Origin: Polyangiaceae bacterium
Lineage (GTDB): Bacteria; Myxococcota_A; Polyangia; Polyangiales; Polyangiaceae
Direction: 5' to 3'
NCBI GenBank assembly: GCA_029266615.1
Contig: JAQSWN010000038.1
Span: 1 to 64,000 of the forward strand
DNA: 64,000 nucleotides
Program-made: the position numbers and the translations under genes
Part shown: positions 1 through 13,643 of the stretch, piece after piece
Position numbering within the stretch: position 1 is the stretch's first letter
Layout: every line of letters begins with the position of its first letter
Notes under the pieces: generated by a model
Seen by the model: the letters and a program-made list of their open reading frames with translations, nothing else
Told to the model about the DNA's origin: nothing
Databases searched by the model: none

Positions 1-491
1 TCGTTCAACGCGACCAGGCTCTGGCCGTCGTCCAGCCGCACTTGGACCATCGTACGCTCTTCCAGCCTCGCATCATCCGCGACCACCGCGCGCAGCAGTT
101 GGCACCCGCGTGCGGGTGAATGGCGCACCAGCACGCCATCGAAGAGCTGCGGCGTCGGGTTGACGCCGAGCACCGCTTGCCCCGTCAGGTACTTGGCGAC
201 GTTGGCAACCAGGCCGTCCTGCCCGACGACCACGATGGTGTCGTCGGGCTCGAACAAGAACCTGTCGAGCTGGTGGCGGAGCACCAGGTTACGCCGAAAC
301 GTGAGCGGGATAGCGGCTTGCACAGTTATCACCGCGCTCTGCACCTGATGGTGCACCGCCTCGACCTCCGAGAGGGTCTGACCGCGCTGCTGGAGAAAAA
401 ACTCGGCCTGACTGCGGGTGGCGTGGCGCGCGAGCAGCTCTTCGTAAGCCGTGTGACGTGTCACCATCACCACGCGCGGGACGCGGGTCAC
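1..491 (-). CDS. NAD kinase-like protein (partial, C-terminus beyond left edge)
   Basis: An open frame runs from a GTG at 491 to the window edge, about 163 codons with no stop, so the C-terminus is missing. The N-terminal part has no recognised motif. Around residues 81-100 it reads FEPDDTIVVVGQDGLVANV and then AVLGVNPTPQLFDG. This matches the GGDG nucleotide-binding turn and the following GVN strand of ATP-NAD kinases (COG0061 type), but with GQDG instead of GGDG. Members phosphorylate NAD to NADP; whether this one does is uncertain because of the altered turn. The GTG overlaps the TGA of the upstream SPFH gene by four bases, so the two are translationally coupled. The locus also contains an NrtR-type regulator of NAD metabolism, which supports a link to NAD. 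It could instead be a non-catalytic nucleotide sensor of the same fold. Confidence 0.72.
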   Translation of the reverse strand, partial: MTRVPRVVMVTRHTAYEELLARHATRSQAEFFLQQRGQTLSEVEAVHHQVQSAVITVQAAIPLTFRRNLVLRHQLDRFLFEPDDTIVVVGQDGLVANVAKYLTGQAVLGVNPTPQLFDGVLVRHSPARGCQLLRAVVADDARLEERTMVQVRLDDGQSLVALN

Positions 492-1744
492 TTGCCGCCC
501 CCCCCCTCCAACTTCGCGACGCTGAGCCGCGCCACCTTTTCCAGCAAGCCTCCGAGCATGTCGGGCGTGACGGTGAGGTTCTGGATTTTGAGCTGCCCGG
601 CCAGTTCCTGCGCCGCGAGCGCCCACACCGCCTGCGGCGGCAGGTCCCGGTACGCGTCCATCCTCTTCTGCTCACCGAGCGCTCGCGCTTCCCCCACGGC
701 GCGCAGCTTCTCGGCTTCAGCCAAGCCCTGCAGCCGCGTTCGCTCCGCAACTGCGCCGCCGACGAGGCGCTCGGTTTCGGCTTGGGCACCAGCCTCCTGC
801 TTGCGTCGCTCGGCTGCGGCCGCGGCTTCGAAGCGGGTCTTGTCGGCTTCCGCCTCGGCTTGTTGTCGCAGCTCGTCGCCGGCGGCCACGCTGAGCACGC
901 GCTTGCGCATGGCTTCCGCTTCCGTTTCGAGCTGAGCGCGCTCGACGGTCGCGCGCGTCTCGATGCGCTTGTCCTCCGCTACCGCGACGATCCCGAGCCG
1001 GCGCGCTTCGGCCTCGCGCTCCACGCGCTGGCGGGCGTTTTGGCCGTTCTGCGCGATGAGCGACTCTTCGCGCTTGGCCAGCTCCACCTTCGTTTGCAGC
1101 TCGTTTTCGGCGATAGCGCGCTCCTTCTCCACGGCCAGAGCGCGGCGCTTGAAGACGGATTCGTCCGCGAGCTGTTGTAGCGTTTCACGCGTGGGCGTTT
1201 GAAGGGCCCGCTCCAACTCGGGCGTTGGCTTGAGCTCGTCGATACGCACCGTCTGCACCGCCAGGCCCAAGGCCGCGAGCGCCTCGTTGCCGTGGAGGGC
1301 GCGGGCCAGCTCCTCCCCCAACTTACCGAACCCGCTGACCATGAGATCCGCGATTTCACTCCGAGCGATGACGGTCAGCCCCGCCTGCTGAGCGATGCCG
1401 GTCAAAAGCACGGCGATCTGCTCCAGCGGCTGCTTCTTGTGCGTTCCCCGCTCCAGGTCGATGGCGAAGTCCACGCGATCGGCGAGGCGCCGCGCGTCCA
1501 TCACGCGGTAAGTGATGACGCCTTGCACGACCATTTCCTGGTAGTCGCGGGTGCGACCTTTGAAGAGGTAGTTGAGATCGCGGTCGTCGACCGGGATCTC
1601 TGCCACCGCCGCGGCCATGGGGAAGAACCAAAATGCCAGGCCTCGCCCTTCTCGAAGGAGCTCCCCGCGCCGGTAGTGCAGCACGTAGCTCGTGGCCTCC
1701 GCCCGCAAGTGCCGCATCCAGAAGAAACTCCTGATTTCTGCCAT
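488..1744 (-). CDS. SPFH/band 7 domain protein (slipin/flotillin-like)
   Basis: A 418-residue protein. Residues about 1-200 match the SPFH/band 7 fold: a short hydrophobic stretch near 36-48, then IPVDDRDLNYLFKGRTRDYQ and the strand-rich region ending near VRIDELKPTPELERAL. Residues about 220-390 are a long Ala/Glu/Arg-rich coiled coil typical of flotillin-like proteins. The C-terminus is a short helix ending in a Gly run. The family forms oligomeric scaffolds at the membrane. The ATG at 1744 has a strong ribosome site (AAAAGGAG) about 8 bases upstream. The stop overlaps the GTG of the NAD-kinase-like gene. Upstream lie two inverted repeats shared with the divergent methyltransferase gene, so the two transcripts are probably co-regulated. 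The exact role here is inferred, not known. Confidence 0.85.
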   Translation of the reverse strand: MAEIRSFFWMRHLRAEATSYVLHYRRGELLREGRGLAFWFFPMAAAVAEIPVDDRDLNYLFKGRTRDYQEMVVQGVITYRVMDARRLADRVDFAIDLERGTHKKQPLEQIAVLLTGIAQQAGLTVIARSEIADLMVSGFGKLGEELARALHGNEALAALGLAVQTVRIDELKPTPELERALQTPTRETLQQLADESVFKRRALAVEKERAIAENELQTKVELAKREESLIAQNGQNARQRVEREAEARRLGIVAVAEDKRIETRATVERAQLETEAEAMRKRVLSVAAGDELRQQAEAEADKTRFEAAAAAERRKQEAGAQAETERLVGGAVAERTRLQGLAEAEKLRAVGEARALGEQKRMDAYRDLPPQAVWALAAQELAGQLKIQNLTVTPDMLGGLLEKVARLSVAKLEGGGGK

Positions 1745-1760
1745 GTGGTCCGCTCCTTTT

Positions 1761-1783
1761 GATAGTGTTGTTTATACACTATC
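1761..1783. promoter_or_regulatory. Inverted repeat 1, probable operator in divergent promoter
   Basis: Perfect 8-base arms GATAGTGT and ACACTATC are separated by 7 bases. The element lies 17 bases upstream of the SPFH start codon. On the minus strand it contains TATAAA (1771-1776), a possible -10 box, so a protein bound here would block that promoter. It shares AGTGT-N7-ACACT with the next repeat. The NrtR-type regulator at the end of the divergent operon is the most likely ligand, by inference from position. Confidence 0.7.
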
Positions 1784-1807
1784 CTAAGTGTTCGCGCCAC
1801 ACTTAGG
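1783..1807. promoter_or_regulatory. Inverted repeat 2, probable operator in divergent promoter
   Basis: Perfect 9-base arms CCTAAGTGT and ACACTTAGG are separated by 7 bases. It abuts inverted repeat 1 and has the same AGTGT-N7-ACACT core and spacer length. The two centres are 23 bases apart, close to two helical turns, as expected for two dimers bound to one face of the DNA. It lies 55 bases before the ATG at 1863. Confidence 0.7.
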
Positions 1808-1862
1808 CCAGTAAGGAGTGATTTTCCAACCGAGGGCGAAAACGACTTAGAGTTCCCGGCAC

Positions 1863-4061
1863 ATGGCGCAGGACTATTCGCAGCAGCACCGGGGCGACGG
1901 CGACGCGTACCAACGTTACCTCGCGGGCATGGACCGCAGCATGCGCCAGAAGGTGGCGCTCACGGCAGCTCACCTGCTCGGGGAAGGCACCGTGGCGGAC
2001 ATGGGCATGGGGTCCGGCAGCGGCACGCAGGCGCTCGCCTCGCTCTACCCCCGCATGCGCGTGATCGGTGTGGACGTGAACCCGGAAATGGTCGACCGCG
2101 CCCGCGCGAAGCTGTCCCTGCCGAACCTGGAGTTCGTCGCGGGCGACATCGCGCAGCCGGTGTTTCCCCCGAACAGCCTGGACGCCGTGTTCGACTCCTC
2201 CGTGCTGCATCATGTCACGTCCTTCAACGGCTACGACCATGAAGCGGCGGCGCGCGCGCTCGGCGCGCAGGTGGAGCAACTGTCGATCGGCGGGAGTCTG
2301 ATCGTTAGGGACTTCGTCGCGCCGGACGAAGGAGAGATCCTGCTCGAGCTACCCACGACGGACGGCGACGAGACCGACGCCGCGGAGACTTGCTCGAGCG
2401 CGCGCCTTTTCGAACGCTTTGCTCGAGAATTCCGGCCGCTCTCGTCGGCGCCGGGCTTCGTTTTCGAAAAGGTTTTGCCGCGCGAGGCGGGTTGGGAGCG
2501 TTACCGAGTCCAGCGGCGGTGGGCGGTGGAGTTTCTGCTTCGCAAGGACTACCGCTCGGATTGGGCCTCGGAGGTGCTGGAGGAGTACACCTATTTCACC
2601 CAACCGCGCTTCGAGGCCGAATACCGTAGGCTCGGGCTGCGCTTGCTCGCGTCGTTCCCGATCCACAATCCGTGGATCGTTCAGCACCGATTCGTGGGTA
2701 AGGCGCGGCTCTGGTCCCTAGAGGACGAGCCGCTGGAGTTTCCCGCGACCAATGTGCTCATCGTCGGGGAGAAGGTCTCGCCGAACGAAGGCGTACGCTT
2801 CCATTCAGGCGAGCTGGCGCCGCCAAACGGCTTCCTCCTCACGCATTGCTTCAGTCACCGCGAGTCCGGCGGGCGGCGGGACCTCGTGCGCCGGCCGGGC
2901 ACGGCCGTGGACGTGGTGCCCTGGTTCGAAGAGCACGGGAGGGTATTCGTGCTCGCCCGTAAAGGGCACCCACGCCCCGTTTTGCAGGCTAACGACGCCG
3001 ATCCGGCGATAGATGAAGGCAGCGCGGTCGGGTACGTGACCGAGCCGATCCTAACGATTCAGACCGACAAGCCGCTCGCGCTCACGGTGGAGGACGCGCT
3101 GCAGCACGCCGCGGGCATCCTCCCCCACCAGATCGAGACCTTGATGGAAGCGACCAGCTACTACCCCTCGCCGGGCGGCTTGGTCGAGCAGGTCCGGGCC
3201 GTTCACGTGCGGGTGCCTCCCACCTACTTGAACCGGGATGCTCACAACACGAGCGGCTTCAGCACCGGCGGCAGCGTGCGCGCCATCGACGCGCAGCAGC
3301 TGCTGCGCGCCGCGCAGGTCGGCGCTTTGCCGGACGCCCGCTTGGAGCTCAACGTTTACGAGATCTTGCTACGGCAACGGCTGGATCCGGGACCATGGAT
3401 CGGCGCCGAGCTCTTGCTCGCCGAGCAACCGCCAGACCAGGAGCCGCCGCTGACGACCTTCGATCTCCCGCCGCGCCGCGCGTTCGTTCCCGACTCCGCG
3501 CCGTCGTCGACCGGCTTTTTGCGGCACCTCTGCCGCTATTTTTCCGAACACGGGCCCTCCGGGGACGAGCTCGGCCGCCACGCGCGGGAGTACGTCGTTC
3601 CAGGGCCGCTGAGCACCAACACCGTCGCTTGTGCGGTGCTACGTCGCGTCCGGGACGCCGTTCTGCTCGGCTTGGACGAAGACGATTTGCCCGCCGTGCA
3701 GATCTTCGGGGGTTCGAGCGCGATTTGGGTGACGCCCGCATGGCGCTTGCCACGCTCGGTCCGGGCGCGCTCCGAAGCGGAGGCGTGGACGCGCCGGCAG
3801 TTGGAGAGCGGTTACGGCGTGGAGGTCGCGCGGTTTCACGAGCTGGGAGGCCGCTATCACCCGTCGGCCGGCGTCACGCCCGAGATCGTATTTCCCTACG
3901 CGGTGGAGGCTCGCCCCGTACGAGCCGCCGAGCGCCGGCTGAGCTGGGCGCCGCTCGCCGAGGTCATCGCGCAGCTGCCGAGCTTTAGGGAGGGGCACTT
4001 GCGCGTAGTCGCGCTCCGCGCTGCGCACGCGCTCGGGCTATTGTCCGCGCCCCAGAGCTGA
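1863..4061 (+). CDS. SAM-dependent methyltransferase fused to two degenerate Nudix-like domains
   Basis: A 732-residue protein. Residues 1-200 are a class I methyltransferase: motif [12 protein letters not shown] at 44-54, the acidic strand end GVDVNPEM at 69-76, GDI near 94-96 and SVLHHV at 113-118. Residues about 285-510 resemble an ADP-ribose-type Nudix fold. After [12 protein letters not shown] they reach [20 protein letters not shown], the segment that follows the Nudix box in ADP-ribose pyrophosphatases, but no REUxEExGU box is present. Residues about 580-720 look like a second copy: [20 protein letters not shown] followed by LESGYG sits where a Nudix box belongs but lacks most of the catalytic glutamates. 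The likely role is a methyltransferase that senses an NAD-derived nucleotide; this is inference. The gene ends 2 bases before the NrtR-like gene, so they form one operon. The ribosome site is weak. Confidence 0.72.
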
Positions 4062-4063
4062 GC

Positions 4064-4747
4064 ATGTCGCACACGTACGAGTTTCCTCGCCCCGCGCTCG
4101 CCGTAGATTGCGTGGTTTTCGCAATCGACGAGGGCGCTCTGAAGGTGCTCTTGGTGCAGCGCGGGGCGGAGCCATTTGCGAGCGATTGGGCGTTGCCGGG
4201 CGGCTTCGTCCGATTGGAAGAGACGACGGACCAAGCCGCCCTGCGGGAGCTCCGTGAAGAGACCGGCCTTTCGCAGGTTTTTTTGGAGCAGCTCTACACG
4301 TTCAGCTCGCTCGAGCGTGATCCACGCGAGCGCGTCGTCTCCGTCGCGCATTACGCGCTCGTCCGGCCCGCGGCGGTGCAGGGAGGGACGGACGCGAGCC
4401 AGGCGCGCTGGTTCGCCTTGTCCGAGGTGCCCCCCCTCGCCTTCGATCACGACGGGATCTTGACGATGGCGCTCGAGCGCCTACGCGGCAAAGTTCGCTA
4501 CCAACCGCTCGGCTTCGAGCTTTTGCCGCCCAAGTTCACGCTCGGCCAGCTGCAACGGCTCTACGAGGCGATCCTCGGACGCGAGCTCGACAAGCGGAAC
4601 TTTCGCCGCGCGTTTTTGCGCATGGGCATCCTGGAGGAGCTGGACGAAATGCAGGACAACGTGAGCCACCGCCCGTCGCGCCTCTATCGGTTCCACCGCG
4701 CCGAGTACAAGCGCCTCGTGAAGCGCGGCTTCAACTTCGAGATTTAG
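4064..4747 (+). CDS. nrtR: NrtR-type Nudix/winged-helix transcriptional regulator
   Basis: A 227-residue protein with the NrtR architecture. Residues 1-140 form a Nudix domain, and residues about 147-225 a winged helix with the characteristic [11 protein letters not shown] and [13 protein letters not shown]. The Nudix box is intact: G47, E53, then RELREETGL at 61-69. Catalysis on ADP-ribose-like substrates therefore remains possible, although many NrtR proteins only bind the ligand. Characterised NrtR proteins repress NAD biosynthesis and salvage genes and are released by ADP-ribose. Here the gene closes an operon whose promoter carries two inverted repeats, and the divergent operon holds an NAD-kinase-like gene. 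Autoregulation plus control of the divergent genes is the simplest reading. The ATG follows the previous stop by 2 bases. Confidence 0.85.
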
Positions 4748-4760
4748 CGGGCAAGCTGGG

Positions 4761-5267
4761 TCAGGATATCCAAACGATCATGCCGAGCGATTCGTCTCGC
4801 GCGCGCTGAGTGAGGCGCTGCAAGCCGCGAAAAGGACCAAAGTAGTAGCCGAGATCGTAGTCGCTCTTCAGGTTCAGCTGCTCCCAGCGCCCCGGATAGA
4901 CGCCCAGCGCTTCGAGCTTTTTCGCGTCGAATCGCTCGAGAAGAGAGCTCTCCGTTACCGCTGCGAGCGCGGACGCAATGACCGCCACCTCCGCGGCGAG
5001 GAAGACGCGCGCGGGACCCGCGCCGCCCAAGTCCTCCTCCCCGACGGGGGTGCCCCCGGCGAGCAGGAACGCGAGCGGGCCTTCGCCGGCCTGAGCGCTG
5101 CCACTCAGCAGGTAGTGCAAGCAGTGCCACGCCTTGTCCAGATCCACGAACCCTTGCTCCGGCGCGTTGTACGCGCCGTCGATGACTCCGAAGATGTCCC
5201 CCGGGTTCTGGAGCAGAGCTTCGACCTTCGCTTCGGGAAGCAAATAGGCGTGTCCGATCAGGCTCAT
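4761..5267 (-). CDS. DUF1877 (YfbM-like) family protein
   Basis: A 168-residue soluble protein. It has the DUF1877 pattern: an N-terminal MSLIGHAYLL, then DLDKAWHCLHYLL near 43-55, FLLAGG near 66-71, and the C-terminal YYFGPFRGLQRLTQRARDE segment. The family is widespread and its function is not known; many members occur singly next to unrelated genes. The gene converges on the NrtR-like gene with 13 bases between stops. It begins 27 bases after the end of the TPR gene upstream and may be read with it. Confidence 0.85.
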   Translation of the reverse strand: MSLIGHAYLLPEAKVEALLQNPGDIFGVIDGAYNAPEQGFVDLDKAWHCLHYLLSGSAQAGEGPLAFLLAGGTPVGEEDLGGAGPARVFLAAEVAVIASALAAVTESSLLERFDAKKLEALGVYPGRWEQLNLKSDYDLGYYFGPFRGLQRLTQRARDESLGMIVWIS

Positions 5268-5294
5268 GGCGAGCCCAGCGTAGCACTCACGGCG

Positions 5295-7286
5295 TCAGCG
5301 CAAGCCTTCGCCGCCCACGTACTCGTCTTCCCAATCCTCGCCTTCGAACGGCCAGAACTCTTCGTCGTCTTGCAGAAATCGCTGCGCGTCGAGCGAGTCC
5401 ACGATGGTTTGCGGTAAAAGGCCCTGCGACAGCGCCTGAATCTCCACCTCGAGCGCGCGCTTCTTGCCGAGCACGGTCTCGATGCGACCAAGCCGCGCGC
5501 GTCGGAGCAACCGAGAGAGCCGCAGGTCCAACCGCTGTAGCGCGTCTCCAGCGAGCTCGAGCTGCTGCTGCTCGGCTTCCAGGCGCAGCGCCGCAGACTT
5601 TTGGTAAAGCTCCGTCGCTAGCTGCTGGTCGCCCGCGATGAGTCCGGCCAAATCCACACCCTTGGCGCCCGGGCCGCCGGGACTGCTCGTGAGGGACGCG
5701 CGCGCGGCTTTCGCCTGAAGCGCCAGCGCCACGACCTCCTTCCCGAGCAGCTCTAGATCCGGGCCCTTCTTGCCGGTGCGGTCGGCTTCACGCAGCAGCC
5801 GCTTGAGCTCACGGATTTGCGACTCGATGCGCGTCACCTTGTCCACCGGCGACGCGCTCAGCCCCGCCTCGGACTGGGCCTTCGTCTCCTTTTGGGCGGA
5901 GAGCTTGCTGGACGCTTCGGTGAGCTCACTCATCGAGCGCCGGAGGCCGCTCAGCTGGTGATCCAACAGCGAGAGCCGCCGCGCGGCGCGGCCGTAGCCG
6001 GCGTCGATGCGCAGCAACGAGCCCAGTGCCCGCGCGGTCTCGTCTGGCACCCCCACCCCAGCGCTGGCTGGATCCGCCCCCTCGCGCACGGTGTCTACCA
6101 ACGCCTTCATCGCGGCGCCGTCCTTCGAGATGCGGCGGGCAGCGTCGCGCACCGGCTCGTAACGCTTGATGAACGCGGCAAGCTTGTTGTCCGCTTGTGG
6201 AAAGCGGCACGTCGCGAGGTCCACGTACGAATCTAGAATGTACGACTCGTCTTCGTAGACGTGGTTGACCTGCAGGCGCTTGAGGTCGTCCAGCGCTTGG
6301 CGAGCGCCGTCGTAGTCCTTCGCCTCGTAACGCGTCGTCGCGGTCTCGTAGAGCGCCTCGGTGATGTTCTCCGAGTCGTTCGGGACGAGGTAGTAGTAAT
6401 ACCGCGCGTCGTCGAAGCGGTACTGCTCGTGGGCGACGCGTCCGAGGCCGAGGCGCGCCAGATCGCGAACGCGAAAGAACTCCGACCCTCCGAATAGCGC
6501 CGCGCGCTTGGGCGTCTGCTTCTTGTCCGCGACCTTACAGAACAGCTGCTCGCCGCGCTTGTAGTCGCGCTTCTCGACCGCAATGACGCCCGAAAGGTAC
6601 GTCGCTTGCGCCCAAAAGCGCGATTTTTCGCCGACCTTGGCGTAGGCCGCGAGCGCGTCGTCCGATTTTTTCCCTAGCTCGGCGGCGCGCCCACGCAAGT
6701 ACATGACGTCGCCCGTGAGCTCCTCCGGCGCGCTCGGCGGCACCGCTTCCAAGTCTTTCAGGATCACTTCCGGGCGGTCACTCGCGAGCCCCGCGTCCAC
6801 CAAGCTGCGCACCGCGCGCCGGTAGTACGTGTCGCCCGGATCCCCCTTGAGCAGACGGGTTAGATAGCCCCGTGCGGGCTGAAGGGCGCCCGCGCTCGCT
6901 AGCGCGTCCCCGAGCGAGAAGAGCGCGGCGCGTCCTTCCGCGGAGCTCGCGAACGGCTCGAAGCGCGGAGACTCGATCAGGTACACGAGGTCCCCGATCG
7001 CCTCGTCGCGCCGCCCCGTAGCGAGCTTCTCCTCGATGACGGGCAGCTCGTCGCGCAAGCGCGCGATACTGAGGGGAATGGTCGCGGCGAGCTGCTTCGC
7101 GCCCAGCGCCTTTTGATAGGCGCGCATCGCTTCTCCGCGGGTGTCGGCGGCGTCGTCGTAGGATTGGGGGGCCTGCCCGGCGGGTGCCTCCGTGATGGGC
7201 TCTTCCACCGTCGTAGGCGGCGTACTTTGGGCCCAAGCGCTGCCTGGGAGCAGGGCCGCGCAAAGCCACCAGGAGGCGACTCTCAC
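5295..7286 (-). CDS. Exported TPR-repeat protein with C-terminal coiled coil
   Basis: A 663-residue protein starting at a GTG that overlaps the TGA of the preceding gene by four bases. Residues 1-19 are a clear signal peptide ending SAWAQ. Residues about 75-400 are helical TPR-like repeats (for example GDTYYRRAVRSLVDAGLA and GRVAHEQYRFDDARYYYYLV). Residues about 430-640 are a long charged coiled coil, and the tail is acidic and aromatic (EEFWPFEGEDWEDEY). It is probably a periplasmic scaffold or outer-membrane-associated protein. It is third in an operon after gpmA and the 7283-8047 gene. No specific function is recognised; a part in an envelope or motility complex is possible but unproven. 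Confidence 0.75.
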   Translation of the reverse strand: MRVASWWLCAALLPGSAWAQSTPPTTVEEPITEAPAGQAPQSYDDAADTRGEAMRAYQKALGAKQLAATIPLSIARLRDELPVIEEKLATGRRDEAIGDLVYLIESPRFEPFASSAEGRAALFSLGDALASAGALQPARGYLTRLLKGDPGDTYYRRAVRSLVDAGLASDRPEVILKDLEAVPPSAPEELTGDVMYLRGRAAELGKKSDDALAAYAKVGEKSRFWAQATYLSGVIAVEKRDYKRGEQLFCKVADKKQTPKRAALFGGSEFFRVRDLARLGLGRVAHEQYRFDDARYYYYLVPNDSENITEALYETATTRYEAKDYDGARQALDDLKRLQVNHVYEDESYILDSYVDLATCRFPQADNKLAAFIKRYEPVRDAARRISKDGAAMKALVDTVREGADPASAGVGVPDETARALGSLLRIDAGYGRAARRLSLLDHQLSGLRRSMSELTEASSKLSAQKETKAQSEAGLSASPVDKVTRIESQIRELKRLLREADRTGKKGPDLELLGKEVVALALQAKAARASLTSSPGGPGAKGVDLAGLIAGDQQLATELYQKSAALRLEAEQQQLELAGDALQRLDLRLSRLLRRARLGRIETVLGKKRALEVEIQALSQGLLPQTIVDSLDAQRFLQDDEEFWPFEGEDWEDEYVGGEGLR

Positions 7287-8047
7287 TCGACCACCCGCGC
7301 GCGTAGCTTCACGCGCAAGTCGTATTGCCCATCCGCGTCGTCAGGGAAATCCTCGGCCATGTCCGAGTCGTCGACGATCGTCAGGTGGGTGTCCACGAGC
7401 TTGCTTTCAGGGATGACCACGCTGAAGCGCGAGCTCTGCCAGGTCCGAAACTCTTTGTTGCGCGCGTCGTAACGCTCAATCTCGACGCCGACCACGTGAT
7501 GGCCGGGAGCGACCGCGTGCTCGTAAACGGTGCGCTCGTCCTCGGCCGAGAAGCGCGCTGGTGCGGCGAAGACCACGCCGTCGTCCAGCGTGACGGTGAA
7601 GCTCGCGAGCCGCGCGTCCTCACCTTTGGTCTCGACGACGACACGTAGCTTGCTCGCGAACAAGGTTGTCGTCAGCGCGGCCACGCGGCTGCGAAGCGCT
7701 GCGATGTCCCCGAGCAGCTTGTCGTATTCGAAGGGGGGCGGCTTGGCGGCACCGCTGGGGAATTCTGGAGGCGAAGGCGTCAGCGGCGACGGCTTCTGCT
7801 CCGGCTTCTGCTCCGCAACGCTCTTCGGCGGCGGCGCACCCAAGTCGTCCGTGCCACTGGGCGCGGGCGCTTCAGGGCTCGGTGCGGCCTTCTCCGTGGT
7901 GGCGGCGTCCGCCTTGGCCTTCGCGGCGTCCGCCTTGGCTCGGTCCTCTTCTTTGCTCACCGCTGCCTTCTTGCCGGGCTGCGCATACGCGGCGAAGCCG
8001 AACGAGGTGGCCAAGGCGAGCGAGAAGAGGACCAGCCGTTGGCGCAT
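7283..8047 (-). CDS. Exported low-complexity/beta domain protein, unknown
   Basis: A 254-residue protein with a signal peptide at residues 1-22 (LALATSFGFAAYAQ). Residues about 25-100 are a Lys/Ala/Pro-rich linker that alternates positive and negative charge. A short coiled-coil stretch, DKLLGDIAALRSRVAALTTT, follows. Residues about 130-250 form a compact beta-rich domain with HHVVGVEIERYDARN. Such linkers often span the periplasm or peptidoglycan. The ATG overlaps the gpmA stop (TAATG), and its own stop overlaps the TPR gene start, so it is translationally coupled on both sides. It probably acts with the TPR protein. The family is not recognised. Confidence 0.68.
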   Translation of the reverse strand: MRQRLVLFSLALATSFGFAAYAQPGKKAAVSKEEDRAKADAAKAKADAATTEKAAPSPEAPAPSGTDDLGAPPPKSVAEQKPEQKPSPLTPSPPEFPSGAAKPPPFEYDKLLGDIAALRSRVAALTTTLFASKLRVVVETKGEDARLASFTVTLDDGVVFAAPARFSAEDERTVYEHAVAPGHHVVGVEIERYDARNKEFRTWQSSRFSVVIPESKLVDTHLTIVDDSDMAEDFPDDADGQYDLRVKLRARVVE

Positions 8048-8796
8048 TACTTACCTTTGGTTTGGTTGGCGACGGCCTTGGCGGCGGCTTCGGCCGCGGC
8101 CGCGTCGCCCAAGTAGTAGCGGGGCTTGATCGGCTTGAGGTCGTCGTCCAGCTCGTAGACCAGCGGGATGCCGGTCGGAATGTTGAGCTCGACGATGTCC
8201 TCGTCGCTCACGTTGTCCAGGTGCTTGACCAGCGCGCGGAGGCTGTTGCCGTGCGCGGCGATGATCACGCGCTCACCGCGTTTGATGGCGGGAGCGATCT
8301 CGCTCTCCCAAAACGGGAGAAAGCGCTCGACGGTGTCCTTCAGGCACTCCGTCTTTGGGATGTCGCTGGGCGCGAGGTTGGCGTAACGCGGGTCTTTGCC
8401 CGGCCAGAACTCGTGCGTCTCGTCCAATGGGGGCGGCGGCGTGTCGTAGCTGCGGCGCCAGACCAGCACCTGCTTGTCGCCGTGCTTCTTCACCGTCTCC
8501 GCCTTGTCGAGGCCTTGCAGAGCGCCGTACATGCGCTCGTTCACGCGCCACGTCTGCGTGACGGGGATCCACATTTGATCGAGCTCTTCCAGCGCGATGA
8601 AGAGCGTTTTGATGGCGCGCTTCAACACCGAGGTGTACGCGCGATCGAACACGAAGCCTTCAGCGCGCAGCAGCTTACCGGCGGCGCGTGCTTCCGCTTC
8701 ACCTTGCTCGCTGAGGGGCACGTCGACCCAGCCGGTGAAGCGATTTTCGCTATTCCACTGGCTGAGGCCGTGACGGAGGAGGACCAGTTTCTTCAT
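8047..8796 (-). CDS. gpmA: 2,3-bisphosphoglycerate-dependent phosphoglycerate mutase
   Basis: A 249-residue enzyme interconverting 3- and 2-phosphoglycerate in glycolysis and gluconeogenesis. The phosphohistidine motif [12 protein letters not shown] is at residues 4-15 (His9). It is followed by [14 protein letters not shown], the typical [15 protein letters not shown] substrate loop near 84-98, and the second histidine in [18 protein letters not shown]. Length and motif order fit bacterial GpmA. The C-terminus has an extra Ala/Lys-rich tail. It leads an operon with two exported proteins, an unusual partnership for a glycolytic enzyme. The 188 bases upstream hold its promoter; no clear boxes were assigned. 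Confidence 0.95.
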
Positions 8797-8984
8797 GATT
8801 CAGCAATCTTTCCAGACGCCGCGCCCGGGGGTGGGGCCGGCGCACCATCTCACTGCCATCGTGAGCCGATTGCAAGCGTAAGGAGCGCGGCCCGAAGCCT
8901 ACCCGCGGCCGCGAATGTCGGGAAAAAGGCGCGCGTTTCCAGGAAGCGCGTCAGAGGCGTCCACCCTGAGCGCGATGGCGGTCG

Positions 8985-9368
8985 TCAGTCGGAGACGCCG
9001 GGCACGTAGTCACTCCGCGGCGGCCCTCGTTTGATGCGGCGACAGCCGGCGGCCGCGACGTAGCCGTAGACGGCCGAGCCCGCGAAGGCGGCCGCGAACG
9101 CGGCGCCGACGGCCATGTCGGCTTGCTTGCTGATCGGATAGTTGCGAAAGCGTGACTCGTCCAGCGTCGAGACGTAGGCGACGCCGGCTGCTTCGTAGGC
9201 GAAGAGCGCCGTATCCACGATGGGCCAGAGGTAGCTGGTCGTGCAGTCGACTTGCGGACGCGAAACGCCGGGCCGAACCGCGGGCGGAGGCGTCACGAAC
9301 GTAAGAGAGCAGCCGCTCGAAAGGGCCGCGAGCACGAAGCCGCTAATTCGTGAACGGAAGGAAGACAC
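8985..9368 (-). CDS. Small lipoprotein, unknown
   Basis: A 127-residue protein beginning at GTG. Residues 1-20 are a lipoprotein signal with lipobox ALSSGC. A second hydrophobic Ala/Gly segment (AVGAAFAAAFAGSAVYGYVAA, about 86-106) may be a membrane helix. The start lies 26 bases inside the end of the outer-membrane-barrel gene, so the two are coupled. No family is recognised. Confidence 0.65.
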   Translation of the reverse strand: MSSFRSRISGFVLAALSSGCSLTFVTPPPAVRPGVSRPQVDCTTSYLWPIVDTALFAYEAAGVAYVSTLDESRFRNYPISKQADMAVGAAFAAAFAGSAVYGYVAAAGCRRIKRGPPRSDYVPGVSD

Positions 9369-10065
9369 TGAGCCCGCCGGTGGCCGTGATGTCGTTCACG
9401 ATTTTTTCGACGCCGAGAGCGGCGCGCTTCTGCTCGTGGACGAGATCCCGCACGTCCAGCCGCATCGCCAACCACTGCGTGAAGTAGAACTTCATACCGA
9501 ATCCGCCCGAGCCGGTCAGGCCAACGTCGCCCGGCTGCACGGTGGCGCCGCCGCCGAGGGAGAGGAAGAAGTCGTAGCGGCCGATCGCGCCGCCCATCCA
9601 GCGCACCTTGCCGTAGGCGAGTGACCAGACGACGTTACCGGTGAAGAACTGAATCGGGTTACTGTCAGCGCGGAGGAGCGCGACCTGGGGAGCACTGTTG
9701 GAGAGCGCTTCCAAAAGCTCGTAGTGCTCGCGCGAGCGCAGGTAGCCGGCTTCGAGCCCCAAGTCTTCGGTGAAGTGAAAAGTGTAGGCGCCGCCGTAGA
9801 TGGGCGCTCCGTCCGACAAATCCCCCGCAAACCAGCCGCCCAGCGCCGATACTTCGTGCCGCAAGGCCTTCTGGAACAGTCGCGGGACGACGCCGCGGTA
9901 GGCGCGCTCGCCGACGAGCTGCTGCTTGAGCGCTTCGTCCACGCATTGGGCGCGGGCCTCGCGCGGGGTCAGCACCGCGCCCAGCACGGTGAGCGAGAGC
10001 ACCACGAGCCAGAAGGAGCGGGAGTACCGGCGCGCGCCGGCGGCGAGGTGAAGGGGCGCGAACAA
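9343..10065 (-). CDS. Outer membrane beta-barrel domain protein
   Basis: The protein is about 240 residues if it starts at the TTG at 10065. That start gives an n-region with two arginines, a hydrophobic core (LVVLSLTVLGAVL) and a signal cleavage site after AREARA. The frame stays open to 10212 but the extra part is not signal-like. The mature protein opens with an Arg-rich segment. It then alternates strands such as GGAYTFHFTEDLGLEAGYL, VVWSLAYGKVRWMGG and FGMKFYFTQWLAMRLDVRD, and ends SVFLPFTN. This is the pattern of the myxobacterial eight-strand outer-membrane-barrel family. It is coupled to the small lipoprotein downstream. The start is uncertain; a GTG a few codons later is the alternative. 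Confidence 0.72.
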   Translation of the reverse strand: MFAPLHLAAGARRYSRSFWLVVLSLTVLGAVLTPREARAQCVDEALKQQLVGERAYRGVVPRLFQKALRHEVSALGGWFAGDLSDGAPIYGGAYTFHFTEDLGLEAGYLRSREHYELLEALSNSAPQVALLRADSNPIQFFTGNVVWSLAYGKVRWMGGAIGRYDFFLSLGGGATVQPGDVGLTGSGGFGMKFYFTQWLAMRLDVRDLVHEQKRAALGVEKIVNDITATGGLSVFLPFTN

Positions 10066-10236
10066 ACCGTGTACCGAACTATCATAACCGTCGTCCTTTT
10101 CGGGGGCGCATCTGTATGGGTCGTTACTGGGAGACCGGCCGGCAGCGAACTTCCGATAAAAAACACGCAAATTCGCAGGACCATGGGGCGGAGACCCGGG
10201 GCGCTCGCCCAAAGGCAGGGCAAGATAGGCCCGCGC

Positions 10237-11502
10237 ATGCCGCCTCTCCGTTCGTCGCTCGCCCGCGCCCTACTCCTCGCCGCTTCCTGCTCGCTCGTCG
10301 AGACGGCGGCGGCACAAGAGGCGCGGCCCCCGACGGGCTGTCGCCCTACTCAAGGCTCGCTCGGGCTGGTCGGCTGCCGCCTCGCCGAGCAGCTGGGCAA
10401 CGCGGCGCGCGGCGCCAGCGTCACCGTGCTGGAGGTCAAGAGCGATCGCGCGCTTCCGAGTCAGGATGCGCTGCGCGAGCGGCTGCGGAGCGTGACCGCC
10501 GACGCGCTGGGCCCCAGCGCCCAGATCCGCAAGCTACGCGTCGAGCTCACGGTGGAGAAGGTCGGGGGCGTGCTGCGCGTCAGCGCAGAGCTGCGTCGCG
10601 CGCTCGGCTTGTGGCAGCGCTTGCGCCGCGACAAGCCCAAGAGCGAGGGGCACGCGTTCGTCGAGGTACCGCTCGACGCCGAGCTACGCGCCCTAATACC
10701 TCCCCCCCCACTAGTCGTCGGGGAGACGCTGAAGGTGAAGTCCCCGGAGCGCGGCGTCGTGGCGCTGGCGTGCGGCCCGTTCGGCCCCGATGGAGGCCAG
10801 GAGCTGGTGTTGGTGTCGCGCAGTTTCATTCGCGTCGGTCGCGTGCAGGGCCGGGCGTTCGTCGAGCGAGCCCGCGCGGCGTGGTCAACGCTGTCACCGA
10901 TCGCGCCGAGCCCGCTCCGCGAGCCCTTGGGCAGCGCGGAGATCACCGCCGCTGGGAAGTTGCGCGTCGGGCTGAGCGACCGCCGCGACGCGCTGACTCT
11001 GGACCTTGATTTGCACGTATCCGAGCGCCACGAGGGCGTGTTGCCATTACCGGGCAGCACCTGTGCGATCCGTAACGGTCTCGGGTTGGCGCCGGAGCCC
11101 GGGCCGTGTGCGTCGCGCGCGCTTGCGACGACGGGAGCATCCACGACGACCCTGGACGCCGTCGCGGGGGCGAACGGCGCCTGGCTCGGCCGAGCGTTGG
11201 AGACGGGCACGCTCGTGGCGGGGACACGGGGGCTCACACTTCCCAAAGAGCGAGTCGGGGCGCAGCTCGCGCTCGGGGACGCGGACAGCGATGGCACCTT
11301 CGAGCTCTTGTTCAGCACCGACACGCTGCAGTCCGAAAAGGACCGGCTCACCTTGGTTACCCTCGGGCAGAGCAAGACCGCCTTCCGCTTCGACCTTTCG
11401 GCCCCGGGCATCTCCGCGCTCACCATCTGCCAGCGCCGCGAGGGGCCAGGGATGGCGGCGCTGGTTGCGGCCGTGAACGACGAGCTGTGGCTACTCCGAT
11501 GA
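10237..11502 (+). CDS. Exported protein with FG-GAP-like segment, unknown
   Basis: A 421-residue protein from the ATG at 10237, which directly precedes a signal peptide (ARALLLAASCSLVETAAAQ). Longer in-frame extensions upstream lie antisense to the barrel gene and are not credible. The N-terminal third is a mixed alpha/beta region (RKLRVELTVEKVGGVLRVSA). Near residue 345 it carries LALGDADSDGTFELLF, a calcium-loop pattern as in FG-GAP/VCBS repeats. The stop overlaps the next ATG (ATGA), so it is coupled to a substrate-binding-like protein. Function is unknown; an envelope sensor or surface protein is plausible. Confidence 0.72.
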   Translation: MPPLRSSLARALLLAASCSLVETAAAQEARPPTGCRPTQGSLGLVGCRLAEQLGNAARGASVTVLEVKSDRALPSQDALRERLRSVTADALGPSAQIRKLRVELTVEKVGGVLRVSAELRRALGLWQRLRRDKPKSEGHAFVEVPLDAELRALIPPPPLVVGETLKVKSPERGVVALACGPFGPDGGQELVLVSRSFIRVGRVQGRAFVERARAAWSTLSPIAPSPLREPLGSAEITAAGKLRVGLSDRRDALTLDLDLHVSERHEGVLPLPGSTCAIRNGLGLAPEPGPCASRALATTGASTTTLDAVAGANGAWLGRALETGTLVAGTRGLTLPKERVGAQLALGDADSDGTFELLFSTDTLQSEKDRLTLVTLGQSKTAFRFDLSAPGISALTICQRREGPGMAALVAAVNDELWLLR

Positions 11503-12815
11503 CGCGCGGAGCTGTGATTTCGCGCCGCGCGCTGCTGGCCGCAGCGGCGATCGCCGGACGCGCCGCCGGACTGGGTCGCGTTCCGTACGGCGGAAGGCTG
11601 CGGCTCTCCGTCCCCTATCCCATCGAAAGCCTCGACCCCTCCGCCTTGAACGACGCGTTCTCGGCGCTGTTTTCCGGCGCGGTGTTCGAGCCCCTCTTTG
11701 CGCTCGACGCCTCCGGCACTCCTTACCCCGCGCTGGCGCAGGCTCTTCCCCTCAAGCAGACGACGGGCTGTCGCTTCCAGCTTCGGCCCGGGCTCAAGAC
11801 CGGGTCGGGGCTGAGCCTCACGGCAGCAGACGTAGCCGCGACGCTCGCGCGGGCGCGTACGCGAGGTGGCGTCGGCTTGCTGGGAGAGCTCGAGCCGCCG
11901 GTCGTCAGCGCGAAGGAGCCAATGGTGGTGGAATTCCCGCGCGCGACGCCCGAAGCCGTAGCGCGTACGCTGTCGAGCCCGCTGCTCGCGCTGGTGCCAC
12001 GGCGCTTCTCACCGCTCACCCCCGACGGCTGCGGTGCGTTTCGAGTCGAGGTCGCGCGTGGCCGAGCGCTCTTCACCCGCAACCTGAACGCAGCGCGCGG
12101 TCCCGCGTTTTTGGACGCCATGGAGGTGGGCTCCGTCTCGGATTTGGCCGAGCTGCTGCGCGGCTTCGAGGCGGGTCAAACCGACGTCGGCTGGTTCGGC
12201 AGCGGGCTGTACCGGGCGGTGAAGGACGCGGTCGCGTTCGAAGCGCCACGGTATGGCTTCGCGGTGCTCATGGCGGGGAAGACGGCGGGGGCGTGGGGCG
12301 CCGCGGGAACGTTGCAATCGCTGCTCGACGCCATCCCGGCGGCACGCCTCCTTCACCTCGGGCTGCGCGGCTTGCCCCTCCAGACGCAGGGCTCGGCCGC
12401 GTGGGGCGGCCCCGCCACGACCATCGCCGTGCATGGCGCGGCGCCGCAGCTGGTCGCAGTGGCTCGCGCCTTGGCTGCGGCCATGGGCGTGCCCGGTCAC
12501 GAGCTGACCGTCGCGGAAAAAAGCGCCGAGGACCTTGGAGCATTGAAATCCAGCCGTCAATTCGGGCTACTCGTCGACTGCGTGCGCGCTCCGAGCACGC
12601 AACCACGCGATCTCGAGATGGCGCTTCGCACTGCCGCGAGCCCCGAAACCGCCAAGCGCACGCCGCGGACGACGAGCCCGCCCCCGCGTGAGCTCGGCCG
12701 CCAGCTCCCGCTCGGGGTCGTGGGCGAGCTGTCCGTTTGGGGTGCGCGACGCGCCGCGTTCGACGCGCTGGACGGATGGAACCTGGGCGCGGTGTCCTTT
12801 CGGAGCGGGGCTTAG
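11499..12815 (+). CDS. Family 5 substrate-binding-like protein
   Basis: A 438-residue protein starting at the ATG that overlaps the previous stop. Residues about 8-27 (SRRALLAAAAIAGRAAG) form a short twin-arginine-like or Sec export signal. The following LSVPYPIESLDPSALNDAF and FEPLFALDASGTPYPALAQA match the start of oligopeptide/nickel-type (SBP_bac_5) binding proteins. The protein is shorter than the usual 500-550 residues and later regions diverge. No permease or ATPase lies near, so a transport role is doubtful; it may be a ligand-binding domain reused in the envelope. It forms a two-gene operon with the upstream exported protein. Confidence 0.68.
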   Translation: MTRGAVISRRALLAAAAIAGRAAGLGRVPYGGRLRLSVPYPIESLDPSALNDAFSALFSGAVFEPLFALDASGTPYPALAQALPLKQTTGCRFQLRPGLKTGSGLSLTAADVAATLARARTRGGVGLLGELEPPVVSAKEPMVVEFPRATPEAVARTLSSPLLALVPRRFSPLTPDGCGAFRVEVARGRALFTRNLNAARGPAFLDAMEVGSVSDLAELLRGFEAGQTDVGWFGSGLYRAVKDAVAFEAPRYGFAVLMAGKTAGAWGAAGTLQSLLDAIPAARLLHLGLRGLPLQTQGSAAWGGPATTIAVHGAAPQLVAVARALAAAMGVPGHELTVAEKSAEDLGALKSSRQFGLLVDCVRAPSTQPRDLEMALRTAASPETAKRTPRTTSPPPRELGRQLPLGVVGELSVWGARRAAFDALDGWNLGAVSFRSGA

Positions 12816-12826
12816 CCCTGCGCGCC

Positions 12827-12846
12827 CGGCAAGACCGGCCTTGCCG
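12827..12846. terminator. Hairpin between convergent genes
   Basis: CGGCAAG and CTTGCCG form a perfect 7-base stem with a 6-base loop. It lies between the stop at 12815 and the convergent stop at 12876. There is no clear T-run, so a bidirectional terminator role is inferred from position and stem. Confidence 0.5.
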
Positions 12847-12875
12847 CGGTGTAGACTTGGCCCGACCAAGCCTCG

Positions 12876-13643
12876 TCAGGGCAGCTTCTTCGGCTCCGGC
12901 AAACTGCCACCGCCCCGGACGAAGGCGATCACGCTCTTGGTGAGCGCTTCGTCCGCCTTCACGCACTTCAGGCTCACCTCGCCGCTGGTCGCGCCCTTGC
13001 ACTCTTTGCGGCGCTCTTGCCACGCTTTGTTGATCTTTTCCTCTTTGCGCAGCGCCTCTTGCGTGTCGTCGTCCAAATAGCGAAAGTCGATCGGAGGGTA
13101 TTTCGGGGAGGGGGCCTTGGACATCGTCACTTCCTCGCTTTGAAGCGTGACGCACGAGCCGTCCCAACGCAGGGCGTCGAAGCTGCCTCCGGCTCCGCTC
13201 ACCTGCATTCCGCCCGCGTCGGCCACTCGCGCGTACAAGATCAGCACCTCTTCGTCGAACTCCACCCAGCCGCTATCCGAAGCGCCTCCGGACGCGTTCC
13301 ACGCCTTAGTGCGGCGCGTGAGGTAGCCGCGCGTCCACTTGGGATTCGAGAACAGGTACAAGCCCACCGACGGAAACTTTCCGTTACACAGCCTCTTGAC
13401 GAATTGCGGATCCGGCGAGCACATCGCGCCCTGTTTGAAACACTCCGTCGGGACGCCCGTCGCGCTCCTGGCGCTGTCCGCGCTCGCGGGCGGCGTCGCT
13501 TCCTCTGCCGCGGGCGCGCTCGGGGCGGGCGCGTCTTCGGGCTGATTCTCGGCCCGGGGAGCCTCTGCTGGCTTCGTGCCACCGCAAGCGGCAGCGAGCG
13601 CGAGCGAGATCCAGAGCGATAGACGAGGGACGGCCGGACGCAT
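12876..13643 (-). CDS. Lipoprotein, unknown
   Basis: A 255-residue protein. The signal is residues 1-19 with lipobox ALAAAC. A Pro/Ala/Glu-rich linker spans about 23-65. The folded part contains four or more cysteines (ECFKQGAMCS, RLCNGKF, GSCVTL, KECKGA), the aromatic SVGLYLFSNPKWTRGYLTRR, and a charged helical region near DDDTQEALRKEEKINKAW. It is monocistronic, divergent from serS across 168 bases. No family is recognised. Confidence 0.7.
   Translation of the reverse strand: MRPAVPRLSLWISLALAAACGGTKPAEAPRAENQPEDAPAPSAPAAEEATPPASADSARSATGVPTECFKQGAMCSPDPQFVKRLCNGKFPSVGLYLFSNPKWTRGYLTRRTKAWNASGGASDSGWVEFDEEVLILYARVADAGGMQVSGAGGSFDALRWDGSCVTLQSEEVTMSKAPSPKYPPIDFRYLDDDTQEALRKEEKINKAWQERRKECKGATSGEVSLKCVKADEALTKSVIAFVRGGGSLPEPKKLP

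Follow-up and report, generated by a model that had tools for sequence, protein, structure and literature searches.

An SPFH and NAD-kinase-like gene pair beside an NrtR-type regulator and a methyltransferase fusion in a Polyangiaceae bacterium: a conserved three-gene module with a probable local addition

Close to one end of a contig from a Polyangiaceae bacterium, four genes diverge from a common intergenic region and encode an NAD-kinase-like protein, an SPFH protein, a methyltransferase fused to two Nudix-like domains and an NrtR-type regulator; the question raised by this locus is whether these proteins make up a single system, linking NAD chemistry to membrane organisation and methylation, or whether only some of them belong together. 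The window analysed here is the first 64 kb, starting at base 1, of a 66-kb contig (C341) in an assembly of 8.9 Mb composed of 444 contigs, with an estimated contamination of 7%. The four genes are real, but they are not one four-part system: three of them are a module of several bacterial groups, to which the methyltransferase fusion looks like a local addition.

From the contig end, the order is NAD-kinase-like gene, SPFH gene, divergent promoter, methyltransferase fusion, NrtR and a DUF1877 gene (Table 1). The GTG start codon of the kinase-like gene (489–491) overlaps the stop codon of the SPFH gene, and the gap between the stop of the fusion and the start of NrtR is 2 bp, so that each side looks like an operon and the locus like two divergent operons. 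The four genes placed on one divergent promoter by the preliminary description are thus confirmed, together with their coordinates and the promoter itself, with the exception of the completeness of the kinase-like gene: the contig begins inside it, leaving 163 of about 296 residues. A scan of the intergenic region (1745–1862) for consensus promoters yielded no site of the sigma-70 type.

Table 1. Features at the left end of the window.
Feature	Position	Strand	Basis or remark
NAD-kinase-like gene	1..491	-	cut by contig end; GQDG replaces GGDG; aligned with full-length relatives
SPFH / Band 7 protein, 418 aa	488..1744	-	Band_7 2.2e-12, above Pfam cut-off
Divergent promoter region, 118 bp, between SPFH-kinase and fusion-NrtR	1745..1862	.	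holds two palindromes
Putative operator 1, GATAGTGT-N7-ACACTATC	1761..1783	.	motif scans; just upstream of the SPFH ribosome-binding site
Putative operator 2, CCTAAGTGT-N7-ACACTTAGG	1783..1807	.	two mismatches to TAGTGT-N7-ACACTA
Class I methyltransferase with two Nudix-like domains lacking Nudix boxes, 732 aa	1863..4061	+	methyltransferase 4.7e-15; profile comparison
NrtR regulator, Nudix box intact, NAD-salvage type	4064..4747	+	NrtR_WHD 1.4e-29, NUDIX 6.3e-20
Right-hand synteny break	4760..4761	.	comparison with congener G287

The conservation of the SPFH and kinase-like genes as a pair was surveyed in 282 genomes of the phylum, where the kinase-like gene, counted at 39% identity or more, is present in 25 genomes, including that of the window. 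An SPFH gene adjoins it at 23 of the 24 other survey loci, and at the 24th the contig stops about 200 bp past the kinase. Other phyla were sampled through plasmid records, which returned 68 kinase matches; 11 of these were opened, and SPFH adjoins the kinase in all of them, being truncated in one (L209). As to the regulator, an NrtR gene lies on the fetched stretch at 9 of the 24 survey loci, and either NrtR or its operator at 11 (L112, L113, L116–L120, L122, L123, L125 and L127); that neither was recognised at the remaining 13 weighs against a module under NrtR control, as does the failure to find NrtR at five of the 11 plasmid loci (two Streptomyces, Kitasatospora, Roseomonas and pHHV216, in which a transposase gene occupies the place of NrtR). 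A divergent NrtR is present at the other six (three Rhizobium, Cupriavidus, Acinetobacter lwoffii and Proteus mirabilis). The co-occurrence of all four families across genomes, by which the preliminary description proposed to check its idea, holds for three of them: several genomes of the phylum, as well as records from the plasmid search, carry NrtR, SPFH and kinase-like genes together, and the methyltransferase fusion stands beside none of the 24 other SPFH–kinase loci. Indeed, no second occurrence of the exact four-gene set was found in the survey and the opened plasmid loci. Two groups of candidates were set aside: the Streptomyces loci L024 and L025, considered as SPFH relatives, in which tblastn finds no module genes (L024 holds long coiled-coil-like frames), and the weak kinase matches (22 of 47 genomes, 26–33% identity), of which the five examined (L063–L067) are nearer to the housekeeping-type kinase.

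Some neighbours of the module on the plasmid-search records deserve a separate mention. In the records from Acinetobacter lwoffii and Proteus mirabilis, the immediate neighbours of the NrtR–SPFH–kinase set are genes for tetracycline efflux, tet(H) or tet(J), and the truncated set on plasmid pHHV216 likewise adjoins such a gene (L208, 4064–8811; L209, 5384–8814; L212, 4106–8798), so that the module seems to have moved together with them. Of the three Rhizobium copies, two have a RES-domain gene no more than 3 kb away (L207, 8487–9044; L210, 6699–7094), that of L207 being annotated as a member of the NAD+ phosphorylase family.

The N-terminal half of the fusion is a class I methyltransferase. 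The two degenerate Nudix-like domains ascribed to the remainder are supported by profile comparison and not by Pfam: with a Nudix profile built from 16 of 20 loci, domain 2 and domain 1 match a Nudix family of the same genome end to end (probability 96%, E 1e-9 and 78%, E 2e-5, respectively), the corresponding probabilities against the Nudix domain of NrtR itself being only 2% and 22%, and those of an NAD-kinase profile, used as control, below 1%. For the C-terminal half, examined in 11 members, Pfam offered no credible match, its profile retrieved nothing from the PDB, and the structure model of domain 2 is unusable (mean pLDDT 37). The two domains thus resemble Nudix hydrolases over their whole length, but differ from them in the absence of a Nudix box from both, as seen in the alignment, and in being joined to a methyltransferase. 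The fusion is present in 11 of the 282 genomes, including that of the window (in one it is split over two contigs), and two further genomes match in the methyltransferase half only. None of the stretches fetched around it in the 10 other genomes carries the SPFH–kinase pair, and a single one (L026) has NrtR near the fusion, 1.7 kb away and followed by pncB; these neighbourhoods share one other family (4 of 10), which resembles a common protein-kinase family.

The distribution of the fusion bears directly on the pathway first proposed for this locus, in which NAD-derived nucleotides would control a membrane-linked methylation through all four genes, the box-less Nudix domains sensing ligands similar to ADP-ribose. 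The operon formed by fusion and NrtR in the window, the presence of two Nudix-like domains and the arrangement of L026, whose closeness would arise by chance roughly once in 100 cases (a hand estimate, the 10 other fusion genomes holding 9 NrtR genes between them), speak in its favour; yet the fusion is missing from every other SPFH–kinase locus, the pair is missing from the other fusion loci, nine of 10 of which also lack NrtR, and in the genomes G214 and G218 fusion and pair lie on different contigs. We regard this pathway as highly improbable, and methylation as the shared output of the four genes is not supported. A role in anti-phage defence was also discarded: PADLOC recognised no more than the methyltransferase domain of the fusion (mad2) and NrtR as a Nudix protein, and gave nothing for the SPFH or kinase-like genes.

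Both the NrtR_WHD and the NUDIX domain of the regulator are above the Pfam cut-offs, which bears out its description as an NrtR-type protein, although its 174.9 bits stay short of the 400 required for the NCBIfam equivalog. For comparison, 35 NrtR neighbourhoods were fetched besides the SPFH–kinase and fusion loci. The Nudix box is lost in all 14 SPFH-linked NrtRs compared (L212 was left out), and the REL-EE core is kept in 34 of the 37 others, the NrtR of the window among them. Of 17 relatives of the latter at 54–66% identity (L026, L136–L151), 14 have pncB beside them, and nadE-like and nicotinamidase-like genes, recognised by eye, are often nearby. With its box kept and its relatives next to pncB, the regulator of the window appears to be of the salvage type, having replaced above the SPFH–kinase pair the usual box-less one; the regulator of the module may be exchangeable.

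NrtR operators have been described as palindromes with N7 spacers, from which the protein is released by ADP-ribose, in the portion consulted of a report (PMC6800001). The intergenic repeats noticed at first sight proved to be two palindromes of precisely this build, with 7-base spacers and centres 23 bp apart. The sequence TAGTGT-N7-ACACTA at 1763 is the sole perfect copy in the 8.9-Mb assembly; genome-wide, with up to two mismatches, 17 sites were counted against 56 for the reversed control, i.e., the motif is rarer and not enriched, a result unfavourable to the NrtR-module model. In a scan of 74 loci (982 kb, window included), chosen because they hold genes of interest, 20 copies with at most one mismatch were found, and two permuted patterns gave none. 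Of the 20, 18 precede SPFH, nrtR or pncB by no more than 300 bp; L153 and L159 hold the remaining two. Leaving out the window and L023, a contig of only 5.7 kb whose SPFH protein is 70% identical, there remain 17 copies, compared to 0, 0, 0 and 1 for four control patterns; at exactly two mismatches the figures are 8 against 7, 7, 5 and 6, so that only near-perfect sites are informative. Operators of the window type precede pncB and nrtR in relatives of the locus. They also precede SPFH on L023 and L123, where NrtR is absent from the stretch; the genome from which L123 derives (G042) encodes an NrtR of the window type, together with an operator of its own, on a different contig (L138). A distance of 22–23 bp between paired sites recurs in L023, L026 and L136.

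A second motif, TAKATG-N7-CATMTA, goes with a second clade of NrtR and is present at seven survey loci (L112, L113, L116, L117, L119, L122 and L127), doubled at four of them with a distance of 15 bp; all 11 copies in the 982 kb belong to SPFH–kinase loci, where they precede nrtR or SPFH by at most 300 bp, against 0, 0 and 1 for three controls. In Cupriavidus, TAAGTTG-N7-CAACTTA, of the same geometry as the operators of the window, stands before SPFH. The link with NAD suggested at the outset is upheld by these observations, namely the presence of NrtR, the operators of the window type that precede the pncB and nrtR genes of relatives, and the co-occurrence of NrtR, SPFH and kinase-like genes. 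The Kitasatospora and Streptomyces SPFH promoters (L202, 3801–3918; L205, 3791–3945) contain no NrtR-type sites; repeated TCGTCA / TGACGA half-sites were seen there by eye, and another regulator may act on them.

In NrtR regulons, according to the parts used of PMC6800001 and PMC5343134, the targets are genes of NAD biosynthesis and salvage and, in Bacteroidetes, sugar genes. The locus shares with such regulons the domain make-up of NrtR, the palindromes with 7-base spacers and the operator type found before pncB and nrtR in relatives, but differs in its targets, which would be an SPFH protein, an NAD-kinase-like protein and a methyltransferase fusion. Elsewhere in the genome of the window, another NrtR-like gene, whose Nudix box is degenerate (L168, 297–974, contig G000:C120), is followed by a gene resembling, by eye, glutamate dehydrogenase, and NadM–Nudix-like, phosphoribosyltransferase-like and nicotinamidase-like genes, also recognised by eye (L178, 3640–6434, contig G000:C47), form a probable NAD salvage cluster, on whose 6.4-kb contig neither operator motif was found.

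The Pfam NAD_kinase scores of the kinase-like protein, 17.2 bits for the fragment of the window and 21.5 bits for the full-length relative of L023, are both below the cut-off of 25.5; nonetheless, among solved structures the best matches of the L023 protein are NAD kinases only, headed by human mitochondrial NADK2 (PDB 7r4j; E 2e-10, or 2e-19 with a profile). NAD kinases are characterised by the GGDG and NE/D motifs and a third region, with the Asp acting as proton acceptor, as stated in the section consulted of PMC8553519. In an alignment of 29 module sequences, covering 17 of the 24 survey loci and 10 of the 11 plasmid loci (L209 was left out), GQDG is found in 27, GPDG in two and GGDG in none; the catalytic Asp is kept in all 29, and the NE/D motif in 28 of 28, the copy of the window ending before it. 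These 29 sequences split from six housekeeping-type sequences with a support of 1.0. The genome of the window encodes a separate kinase with GGDGT, whose best match is likewise NADK2, so that the likeness to NADK2 is not special to the module. The proteins therefore share with NAD kinases, the human NADK2 being nearest, the fold family as judged by sequence, the catalytic Asp and the N-E/D motif, but are set apart by GQDG, by their own clade and by their place in an SPFH operon. A single NAD kinase is typical of prokaryotes, and duplicates occur in sporulating groups (PMC6675116, in the part available); the module family would be a further paralogue.

The replacement of GGDG by GQDG may mean that the protein is no NAD kinase at all, and two alternatives follow this line. 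The first is that it acts on another substrate, such as a lipid or a sugar, the link with NAD being regulatory only; it draws on the name "sugar kinase" given by annotators (most of the Rhizobium records carry it), on GQDG or GPDG throughout the family, on the scores below the Pfam cut-off and on a faint match to diacylglycerol kinase (E 0.14–0.18), but we consider it unlikely in view of the exclusive match to NAD kinases among solved structures and of the preserved catalytic Asp and N-E/D motif. The second is that it is a catalytically silent NAD(P) sensor tuning the SPFH scaffold, with a membrane or stress function as output. The rewritten phosphate loop, the separate GGDGT kinase and the fact that most SPFH-linked NrtRs are box-less too, i.e., sensors, would agree with it; set against these, the invariance of the catalytic Asp in 29 sequences makes a silent protein rather unlikely.

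The partner of the kinase-like protein was described at first as an SPFH membrane scaffold. The SPFH assignment is sound (Band_7 47.8 bits against a cut-off of 23.6); the word "membrane" is unproven, no clear transmembrane segment being seen (highest 19-residue hydropathy 1.46), which also counts against the NrtR-module model. The SPFH protein of a Rhizobium locus (L203) reaches 1.61 in the same scan, which is blind to peripheral attachment. In common with flotillin-like scaffolds, the module protein has a Band_7 domain followed by a long, charged half rich in Ala and Glu; it differs in having neither a clear transmembrane segment nor a solved relative, a PDB search with its sequence being negative, and in its kinase-like partner. 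The nearest named relative of the gene is in a Polyangiaceae assembly.

The congener G287 aligns in one piece, at 80% identity, with 4761–13403, where the fetched stretch stops, and carries a different gene to the left of the break; an SPFH match at E 1e-30 is absent from the seven other genomes of the genus. The synteny break and this absence make the block look acquired; it was probably acquired, with its left end beyond the contig. A GltC-type gene adjoins the block.

Taken together, the account that we favour, and hold to be probable though with considerable doubt, is that the locus is an acquired copy of a conserved, NrtR-controlled SPFH and NAD-kinase-like module, in which the methyltransferase fusion has been joined to the regulator. 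The order of the genes, the operator motifs and where they lie, the conserved pair, the altered kinase motifs and the synteny break are seen in the sequence itself; binding, ligand, complex formation, activity and location are predicted. With NrtR on the two palindromes, both divergent operons would be repressed until a rise in the products of NAD turnover, of which ADP-ribose is the likeliest by analogy with the NrtR proteins studied, released it; the SPFH protein would form an oligomeric platform holding the kinase-like protein, which would bind NAD(H) and then either phosphorylate it to NADP(H) or sense it. A wider proposal, possible but put forward only tentatively, is that of an undescribed NAD-state module spread over several phyla, in which a Nudix-derived, mostly box-less and exchangeable regulator controls an SPFH scaffold carrying a kinase similar to NADK2 but altered in its phosphate loop, serving as a localised source of NADP or as an NAD(P) sensor and moving on plasmids and islands.

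The set of regulator, scaffold and kinase is conserved, and no description of it was found in the literature searched. A full-text search returned no paper joining SPFH (or SPFH domain) with NAD kinase or NADK, NrtR with SPFH or prohibitin, or stomatin-like with NAD kinase; the article by Rodionov et al. (2008), reportedly the founding one on NrtR regulons, was outside its scope. The names given in databases, "sugar kinase" or "hypothetical protein" for instance, mask the family. If the conserved set holds, bacteria would place or sense the formation of NADP on an SPFH platform, SPFH proteins of unknown role would gain a testable partner, and NrtR regulons an additional class of targets.
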